NCBI GenBank assembly: GCA_016871395.1
Contig: VFYV01000014.1
Span: forward strand, 1 to 49,897
Reading direction: 5' to 3'
Length of the DNA stretch: 49,897 nucleotides
From: Actinomycetota bacterium
GTDB lineage: Bacteria > Actinomycetota > Acidimicrobiia > Acidimicrobiales > Ilumatobacteraceae
The first letter of the stretch is position 1. Each line of letters opens with the position of its first letter. The position numbers and the translations under genes are program-made. Under the pieces are notes generated by a model. It was not told the origin of the DNA and searched no databases. It was given only the letters and a program-made list of their open reading frames with translations. Below, piece after piece: positions 16,181 through 16,361 of the stretch.

Positions 16181-16210
16181 TTGCGGGTCTGCGACACGGC
16201 TCGGTAGGGT
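16181..16210 (+). promoter_or_regulatory. promoter of the leuA leader
   Basis: TTGCGG (16181-16186) and TAGGGT (16205-16210) form -35 and -10 boxes with an 18-base spacer. The -10 ends seven bases before GTG 16218, so transcription should start at the first base of the leader peptide. Confidence 0.7.
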
Positions 16211-16217
16211 CAGGCGC

Positions 16218-16250
16218 GTGACGTTCCTGACCGGCCTCCTTCTTATGTAG
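16218..16250 (+). CDS. leuL: leucine leader peptide (attenuator sensor)
   Basis: Ten codons, GTG ACG TTC CTG ACC GGC CTC CTT CTT ATG then TAG, encode (f)M-T-F-L-T-G-L-L-L-M. Four of ten residues are leucine, three of them consecutive and using CTC and CTT codons. It is followed by a strong hairpin and a T-run terminator before leuA, the layout of a ribosome-mediated attenuator: leucine shortage stalls the ribosome and should prevent termination. The frame has no Shine-Dalgarno and starts at the predicted transcription start, so it would be translated as a leaderless mRNA. Confidence 0.8.
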   Translation: MTFLTGLLLM

Positions 16251-16276
16251 GGCGAACGCCCCATAACGCGTTCGCC
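16251..16276 (+). promoter_or_regulatory. attenuator hairpin immediately after the leader stop codon
   Basis: GGCGAACGC (16251-16259) pairs perfectly over nine bases with GCGTTCGCC (16268-16276), loop CCCATAAC. It starts on the base after the leader TAG. It is likely the pause or anti-terminator element; its mutually exclusive pairing with the terminator was not resolved by eye. Confidence 0.6.
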
Positions 16277-16281
16277 GTCAG

Positions 16282-16310
16282 CCCCGTGCGCTCCAGCGCC
16301 GGGGTTTTTT
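16282..16310 (+). terminator. intrinsic terminator of the leuA attenuator
   Basis: CCCCG (16282-16286) pairs with CGGGG (16300-16304) and GCGC (16288-16291) with GCGC (16296-16299), with one bulged T and the loop TCCA. TTTTTT follows at 16305-16310. It is the clearest intrinsic terminator in the window and lies 52 bases before leuA rather than after a gene, as expected for attenuation. Confidence 0.8.
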
Positions 16311-16361
16311 GTTTGTCCGAATCAGCCTCGTCACGCCAGCACACCACCAAGGGAGTACCGC

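Follow-up and report, generated by a model that had tools for sequence, protein, structure and literature searches.

A predicted leaderless leucine attenuator in front of leuA in the Acidimicrobiia, with a hairpin anchored to the leader stop codon and no detected antiterminator

What decides whether transcription continues into leuA when a leucine-rich leader frame, a hairpin and a terminator stand in a row in front of the gene? In textbook attenuation two RNA hairpins compete for the same bases. At the locus described here the two hairpins have no bases in common. It lies in a window of 49,897 nt, the whole stretch of DNA that was analysed (contig VFYV01000014.1). The nearest named relative of the LeuA encoded in this window, at 95% identity, comes from an Ilumatobacteraceae metagenome-assembled genome, class Acidimicrobiia. 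We suggest that the locus is a ribosome-mediated leucine attenuator, probably one of a set that precedes several branched-chain amino acid genes in this class, and we discuss how its terminator may be controlled.

The locus in front of leuA

Inspection of the window sequence recovered, between 16181 and 16362 on the forward strand, every element that a preliminary description of this DNA had named. A −35 element, TTGCGG (16181–16186), is followed after 18 nt by a −10 element, TAGGGT (16205–16210), which ends 7 nt before the GTG start codon (16218) of a 10-codon frame encoding VTFLTGLLLM (16218–16250; GTG ACG TTC CTG ACC GGC CTC CTT CTT ATG TAG), and this GTG is also the predicted transcription start. 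The product holds four leucines, three of them consecutive, and the putative regulatory codons CTC CTT CTT (16236–16244), as read in a codon-blind scan, are separated from the stop by a single codon. Immediately downstream of the stop codon begins a hairpin, H1 (16251–16276), with arms GGCGAACGC and GCGTTCGCC, nine complementary pairs and the loop CCCATAAC; it is supported by the sequence, by folding and by compensatory changes, and eight of its nine pairs are used in the free-RNA energy minimum.

A GC-rich stem with a bulged T, followed by six T, forms the predicted intrinsic terminator, T (16281–16310). Its stem, GCCCCG-T-GCGC / GCGC-CGGGG, spans 16281–16304 and its T-run 16305–16310; sequence, folding and stem covariation support it, and a feature scan listed a terminator-like site at 16290–16305 that overlaps it. 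H1 and T do not overlap, as had been described. AGGGAG (16350–16355), judged by eye to be the likely Shine-Dalgarno site of leuA, precedes the ATG at 16362 of leuA itself (16362–18113), which encodes a 2-isopropylmalate synthase of 583 aa (NCBIfam TIGR00970, 808 bits, cut-off 697). In the window, the leader and leuA share a reading frame. The folding energy of the region has a z of −3.25, i.e., it is 3.25 s.d. more stable than shuffles.

A codon-blind scan of both strands of the window, which asked for a stop, a hairpin at 0–1 nt from it, a second hairpin and a T-run, found this layout at exactly one place, the present site, and the same scan found it nowhere on either strand of 60 dinucleotide shuffles of the window. 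With a slightly stricter terminator cut-off the site is missed and one chance match appeared in 8 shuffles, making 1 in 68 shuffles in total. Rfam 15, run over the whole window, gave no match at the gathering cut-off; the best sub-threshold match was anti-hemB (20.6 bits, cut-off 49.5), and two sub-threshold matches to Burkholderia sRNAs were taken as chance. Directly upstream of the element lies a 62-aa frame with the motif YPGKGIGYDWR (15903–16091, forward strand), for which Pfam and NCBIfam gave no match. By eye, similar frames precede leuA in several relatives from the genus.

Relatives, pathway codons and the transcription start

From 42 leuA-type leaders a covariance model was built; at E ≤ 0.01 it matched 165 of the 296 genomes searched in the class and left the other 131 without a match. 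In the window's own genome it gave one strong match, a second one at E 4.7 being chance. When a phylum-wide sample was searched at E ≤ 0.001, 41 of 396 matched, 11 of these outside the class. The layout could be parsed at 12 of 13 places outside the class (L325 was unparsed), before leuA-, ilvB- and leuS-like genes, and the downstream gene was confirmed as leuS for L316 and as ilvB for L317. The places where the layout stands before leuS-like genes are L315, L316, L318, L321 and L322, with NCBIfam confirmation for L316 only.

Two alignments were made from the elements. Alignment A1 used 42 of 44 distinct elements (L034 and L049 were left out), and alignment A2 had 100 sources (left out were, e.g., L111, L113, L114, L126, L140, L145, L163, L199 and L219–L221; L138 and L152 are one place). 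Together they hold 139 sequences, 137 of which were parsed (L149 and L197 were not); these 137 entries contain repeats and reduce to 129 distinct elements, or 128 by a shorter key, and L144, L148 and L161 among them stand before ilvB or cimA, not leuA. Across the stems of H1 and T, 98.3% of cells are paired, as opposed to 85.3% when shuffled and 41–49% when slid, and 8 of 10 stem pairs in the alignment of H1 and T show two-sided changes. H1 and T both covary.

Eighty named loci anchored on LeuA divided into 27 with this layout, 41 that are LEU-like and 12 with neither; LEU-like was counted by a regular expression (Leu codons, then a GCCGCG-like stem start), and upstream sequence was missing for some of the 12. 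The element precedes two distantly related leuA isozymes, the TIGR00970 type of the window and a TIGR00973 type (L143, L146, L153), and three genomes carry two elements each, one per isozyme type (L142/L143 in G121, L147/L146 in G178 and L151/L150 in G168); L143 and L146 were assigned by HMM and the others by eye. Four scan matches (L072, L073, L083 and L103) were judged spurious and dropped. We also observed by eye, at L026, L053, L063, L074, L075, L098 and L099, a short Leu-Arg-Leu-rich frame that ends before leuA and is possibly another leader type; several of these loci come from metagenome-assembled genomes labelled Proteobacteria. In many class members the H1 loop of the leuA elements (16260–16267 in the window) has a CATAT/CATAA core though the stem varies, and no partner was found for this conserved core.

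As the covariance model (R1) itself includes Leu codons, which biases its matches to Leu, a codon-blind scan is the fairer test of what the leaders encode. Upstream of protein-anchored genes, only the stop, the hairpin, the second hairpin and the T-run were searched for, and the three codons that end one codon short of the stop were read after a match. The layout was present at 23 of 24 leuA loci, with Leu at 69 of 69 positions; the 24 come from 30 loci, six of which were without upstream sequence or were distant paralogues, and 15 of the 24 are from the window's own genus, some of them identical. At ilvB it was present in 22 of 30 loci (30 of 109 places), with Val, Leu or Ile at 65 of 66 positions, and at cimA, the gene for citramalate synthase of the isoleucine route, in 17 of 30 (30 of 98 places), with Ile at 49 of 51. 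The codon-blind match was missing at 8 of the 30 ilvB and 13 of the 30 cimA loci; a laxer scan, which itself selects I/L/V runs, found such runs at most of the ilvB loci. The ilvB and cimA samples may lean toward holders of the element, because their query proteins were taken from loci matched by the leuA model. A further 20 stretches before cimA or ilvB, scanned with laxer cut-offs, gave 6 matches and 14 without (one only 100 nt long). The layout was found at 0 of 30 leuS and 0 of 30 trpE loci of the class, some of which have little upstream sequence (100 nt in L356).

The window's own genome carries three versions of the element, whose leaders end in GLLLM before leuA, in ALVVIL before ilvB (L225, C3) and in SIVIIR before cimA (L282, C23), each with H1 at gap 0 and with T. 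Across the 129 distinct elements, Leu occupies 376 of 387 run positions. Rare codons are enriched in the runs: CTT accounts for 166 of 376 run Leu codons but for 13 of 381 in 12 likely window genes, and GTA for 29 of 47 run Val codons but for 8 of 357 in window genes, the baseline being window genes only. Judged from sequence, such pathway-matched runs of rare codons are the expected look of a sensor of tRNA charging. The leucine leader peptide and terminator first proposed for this site thereby hold up, the Leu codons and the terminator being conserved in relatives.

The promoter had been called near-consensus, which is too strong, as each hexamer agrees with the E. coli consensus at only three of six positions and a sigma-70 scan gave no site. 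TAGGGT nevertheless fits the TAnnnT rule given for the actinobacterial −10 (PMC8079986), and many relatives, inspected by eye, show TTGAC/TTGCG-like boxes about 17–18 nt ahead of the −10. Among 76 distinct leaders with only one possible start, 73 have a [TGC]ANNNT box that ends 6–10 nt short of the start codon, and the commonest spacing, in 27 leaders, is the 7 nt of the window; the background of this box in the same 76 leaders, 13–59 nt upstream, has a mean of 2.2 per position. The 29 single-start leaders of ilvB and cimA have a like spacing, with 24 box occurrences at 7–9 nt. In S. lividans the −10 is described as sitting 4–9 nt before the mapped transcription start (PMC8079986). As the −10-to-start spacing is conserved, the leader is very likely transcribed leaderless, a prediction from promoter spacing that agrees with the earlier proposal of a leader start coinciding with the transcription start. 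The same proposal presented leaderless translation, by which initiation efficiency might become part of the sensor, as the twist of the locus. Leaderless translation of a leader is not a new feature, because such leaders are already documented: leaderless leader peptides precede leuA (leuL1) and leuS in S. lividans (PMC8079986), the ilvB leader of C. diphtheriae is reported to be leaderless, and the ilvBNC leader of C. glutamicum is nearly so, its transcription and leader starts lying 1 nt apart in the account given (PMC11857589).

The hairpin at the stop codon and the search for an antiterminator

Of 128 distinct elements, 119 have an H1 that begins at −1, 0 or +1 relative to the stop codon when any start from −6 to +15 is permitted; the parse that supplied these elements had itself required a hairpin no more than 3 nt from the stop. 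The sequence of H1 differs among leuA, ilvB and cimA elements, and its position hardly does. The stop is UAG in 109 of 129 distinct elements, a preference that may be explained by the last base of the stop codon being the first paired base of H1 when H1 starts at −1. With the ribosome footprint taken as +15 from the P site, H1 is free in the model while the ribosome occupies the first regulatory (Leu) codon, and its 5′ arm is covered once the ribosome is at the stop; over the 137 entries, the median modelled probability of H1 is 0.999 in the former state and 0 in the latter. In the model, H1 would thus form only when the ribosome is absent or upstream of the stop, and, being free on stalling and masked at the stop, it would read the position of the ribosome.

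The preliminary description classed the layout as classical attenuation, with the antiterminator pairing still to be found. Ribosome-masked partition functions of the whole element give a T that folds in every modelled ribosome state, P(T) falling under 0.5 for 3–5 of the 137 entries and for none or one of the elements before ilvB and cimA. This full-length measure is uninformative, because it also missed the switch of E. coli trp (L387), for which P(T) was 0.96–0.98. In a truncated test the RNA ends before the 3′ arm of T, and the question is whether the 5′ arm of T is already paired elsewhere; the states modelled were ribosome absent, ribosome on each of the three regulatory codons, on the last codon and at the stop. 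E. coli trp, the sole control, gave a pre-pairing of the 5′ arm of 0.71 when stalled vs. 0.03 at the stop. Of 168 distinct elements (129 via leuA or the model, plus 22 ilvB and 17 cimA elements from the codon-blind scan), none showed a trp-type gain in pre-pairing above 0.3 on stalling at any of the three stall positions, and the largest gain in the trp direction among the 129 was 0.25. The reverse difference, more than 0.3 higher at the stop, was seen in 12–19 of the 129, in 1–4 of the 22 ilvB and in 5–7 of the 17 cimA elements, depending on the stall position.

Complementarity of the H1 loop, the H1 3′ arm and the Leu run to the arms of T was no better than that of permuted pairs (z −0.25 to 1.55), pseudoknots being covered by this duplex measure only. 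The complementarity between the H1 loop and T that is seen by eye in a few relatives gained no support from the permutation test. Pairing of the Leu run with the 3′ arm of T averages −8.4 kcal/mol, but permuted pairs do equally well, and such pairing was also judged by eye to be impossible for Ile leaders. Read-through or frameshifting onto T was set aside as well, since no frame is clearly preferred: of 137 entries, 120 remain open across T in frame 0, 110 in frame +1 and 117 in frame +2. The spacer lengths, with r of 0.31 between H1 length and the rest and of −0.52 between linker and T, were not used because the border between linker and T is ambiguous.

By these tests, either a classical antiterminator is absent or the mechanism is not an exchange of base pairs. 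The features of a ribosome-mediated attenuator in the broad sense are found, namely a leader ORF with pathway codons and, by sequence and covariation, an intrinsic terminator. We do not class the element as a classical trp-type attenuator, because the antiterminator that defines this type was tested for and not found; this part of the preliminary description is not supported. The E. coli trp leader is led by a Shine-Dalgarno sequence. It resembles the present element in its short leader, codon run and intrinsic terminator, and differs in that its antiterminator is detected by the same folding test.

Known systems, possible mechanisms and their meaning

The LEU element is a leader peptide with a Leu run before leuA, for which a pseudoknot and a pairing with the leuA ribosome site have been proposed (Seliverstov et al., 2005; PMC1262725), and the Leu-run leader directly before leuA is common to both. 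At the named LEU-like loci a GC-rich hairpin directly follows the Leu codons, and in our own reading of these loci the frame continues into that hairpin, whereas here the stop precedes it; furthermore, the LEU element is presented without a described terminator, as far as the accessible text goes, whereas here T follows H1 (PMC1262725). With its terminator and with a frame that closes ahead of the hairpin, the present element falls outside the LEU element as published, although the two may plausibly share an origin. In S. lividans, the short Leu-run leaders leuL1 (leuA) and leuL2 (leuS) are reported to be leaderless, as is predicted here. A hairpin and a U stretch are described for leuL2; leuL1, unlike the present leader, is given without a terminator, and a stop-anchored hairpin is not described for either in the accessible text (PMC8079986).

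The ilvBNC attenuator of C. glutamicum, which is backed by mutational evidence, shares with our element a start at or near the leader start (1 nt off there, predicted here), the codons CUU and GUA and a terminator, but its antiterminator and terminator are described as sharing 3 nt (GCC), whereas H1 and T share nothing (PMC11857589). The proposal for M. tuberculosis ilvB1 is similar in its LVVI codons and in a ribosome at the stop that masks a hairpin formed on stalling, and unlike ours in its mutually exclusive terminator and anti-terminator (PMC13236596). The mycobacterial poly-Cys leaders (Canestrari, 2020, as reviewed in PMC9031893), to which further uORFs are related (PMC4633059), are leaderless short ORFs in which codons for the sensed amino acid form a run, as is predicted here; they sense cysteine, however, and are described as regulating downstream translation. 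A search of the open-access literature returned no paper on such branched-chain leader regulation in this class, and one for citramalate synthase together with leader peptide and attenuation surfaced only work on valine production in Methanothermobacter among the texts accessible.

As the layout is found in more than half of the class genomes searched and its codons match the pathway, we consider it very likely, at a probability of roughly 0.88, that the element as a whole is a ribosome-mediated leucine attenuator. The full explanation, in which this leucine-responsive attenuator belongs to a branched-chain set within the class, appears likely to us. Transcription would begin at or within 1–2 nt of the leader GTG, and a ribosome would load directly on the 5′ end of the RNA. 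A shortage of leucyl-tRNA would stall this ribosome on CTC CTT CTT, a run rich in a rare codon, and H1 could then fold up against the front of the ribosome. With leucine in good supply, the ribosome would reach UAG, where its footprint would cover the 5′ arm of H1; it would then leave, and T would terminate transcription before leuA. In the stalled state, we infer that H1 and the held ribosome may hinder the folding of T by contact or by timing. We prefer this last step because H1 occupies the position of an antiterminator yet shares no bases with T, but taken alone it is tentative, and the chances are rather against it. Comparison among relatives supports the sensor codons, the leaderless start, H1 and the terminator, and the gating of H1 by the ribosome comes from modelling.

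Other accounts of the last step rank below contact or timing. The held ribosome could itself be the antiterminator, staying near RNA polymerase under starvation and leaving at the stop in plenty, while H1 would do no more than fold away about 25 nt and so keep ribosome and polymerase close enough to each other. We find this doubtful, although it would suit both the lack of a detected antiterminator in all 168 distinct elements and an H1 that varies in sequence across leuA, ilvB and cimA while nearly constant in position, and a closely following ribosome is described as preventing intrinsic terminator hairpins (PMC5021804). A stalled ribosome, however, is farther from T than one that has reached the stop, so that the polarity would need prompt release, and no length constraint on the spacers emerged from the correlation analysis with its ambiguous linker/T border. 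Pausing is a further candidate, characterized by a TGYG motif and a hairpin-to-pause distance of 11 nt: H1 as a pause hairpin would halt RNA polymerase in the 5′ arm of T until the ribosome comes, and the switch would be one of timing. Of 129 distinct elements, 60 do have a TGYG in the 24 nt that follow H1, 47 of these with the Y at 11–13 nt, and the motif is present in 64 of 137 entries vs. 19 in single-base shuffles, but the ilvB and cimA terminators inspected by eye mostly lack it, and pausing alone leaves the choice between terminating and not terminating unexplained, which makes this account unlikely. Below it we place a classical trp-type switch whose overlapping antiterminator or pseudoknot escaped the modelling. 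Competing antiterminator and terminator are indeed described for the related ilvB attenuation in C. glutamicum and M. tuberculosis (PMC11857589; PMC13236596), but the absence of trp-like pre-pairing from every element tested, in a test that the E. coli trp leader passes, and the permuted-level complementarity of H1 and the Leu run to T both speak against it.

Two further accounts carry the least weight. It is improbable that the locus is a member of the LEU element family acting on leuA translation, with the terminator incidental. The place and the Leu run are the same, and LEU-like sequence stands at just over half of the named leuA loci, but the ORF here stops before the hairpin, a second hairpin and a T-rich tail are present in the 27 named loci with our layout (only 4 T in L034), and the accessible account of LEU-type leuA leaders gives them no terminator (PMC8079986). 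To the idea that the terminator of the small upstream gene lies by chance beside a random short frame we give hardly any credence and have rejected it: short frames are common, but this layout is unique in the window, rare in shuffles and spread through the class with pathway-matched codons.

Returning to attenuation by contact or timing, leaderless leaders and Leu-run leaders before leuA are known already, and what sets the present elements apart, at the level of sequence, is a stop-anchored H1 without a detected antiterminator. They may represent an attenuator family that has no mutually exclusive antiterminator, in which the hairpin at the stop reads the ribosome and T fails by contact or timing, an idea that we hold at somewhat less than even odds. 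In conclusion, more than 100 predicted attenuators before leuA, ilvB and cimA combine pathway codons, covariation and a tight geometry with a hairpin competition that was searched for and not found. If this reading is true, the ribosome and RNA polymerase, and not an RNA switch, would decide termination, and a leaderless branched-chain amino acid regulon would be assigned to the class Acidimicrobiia.
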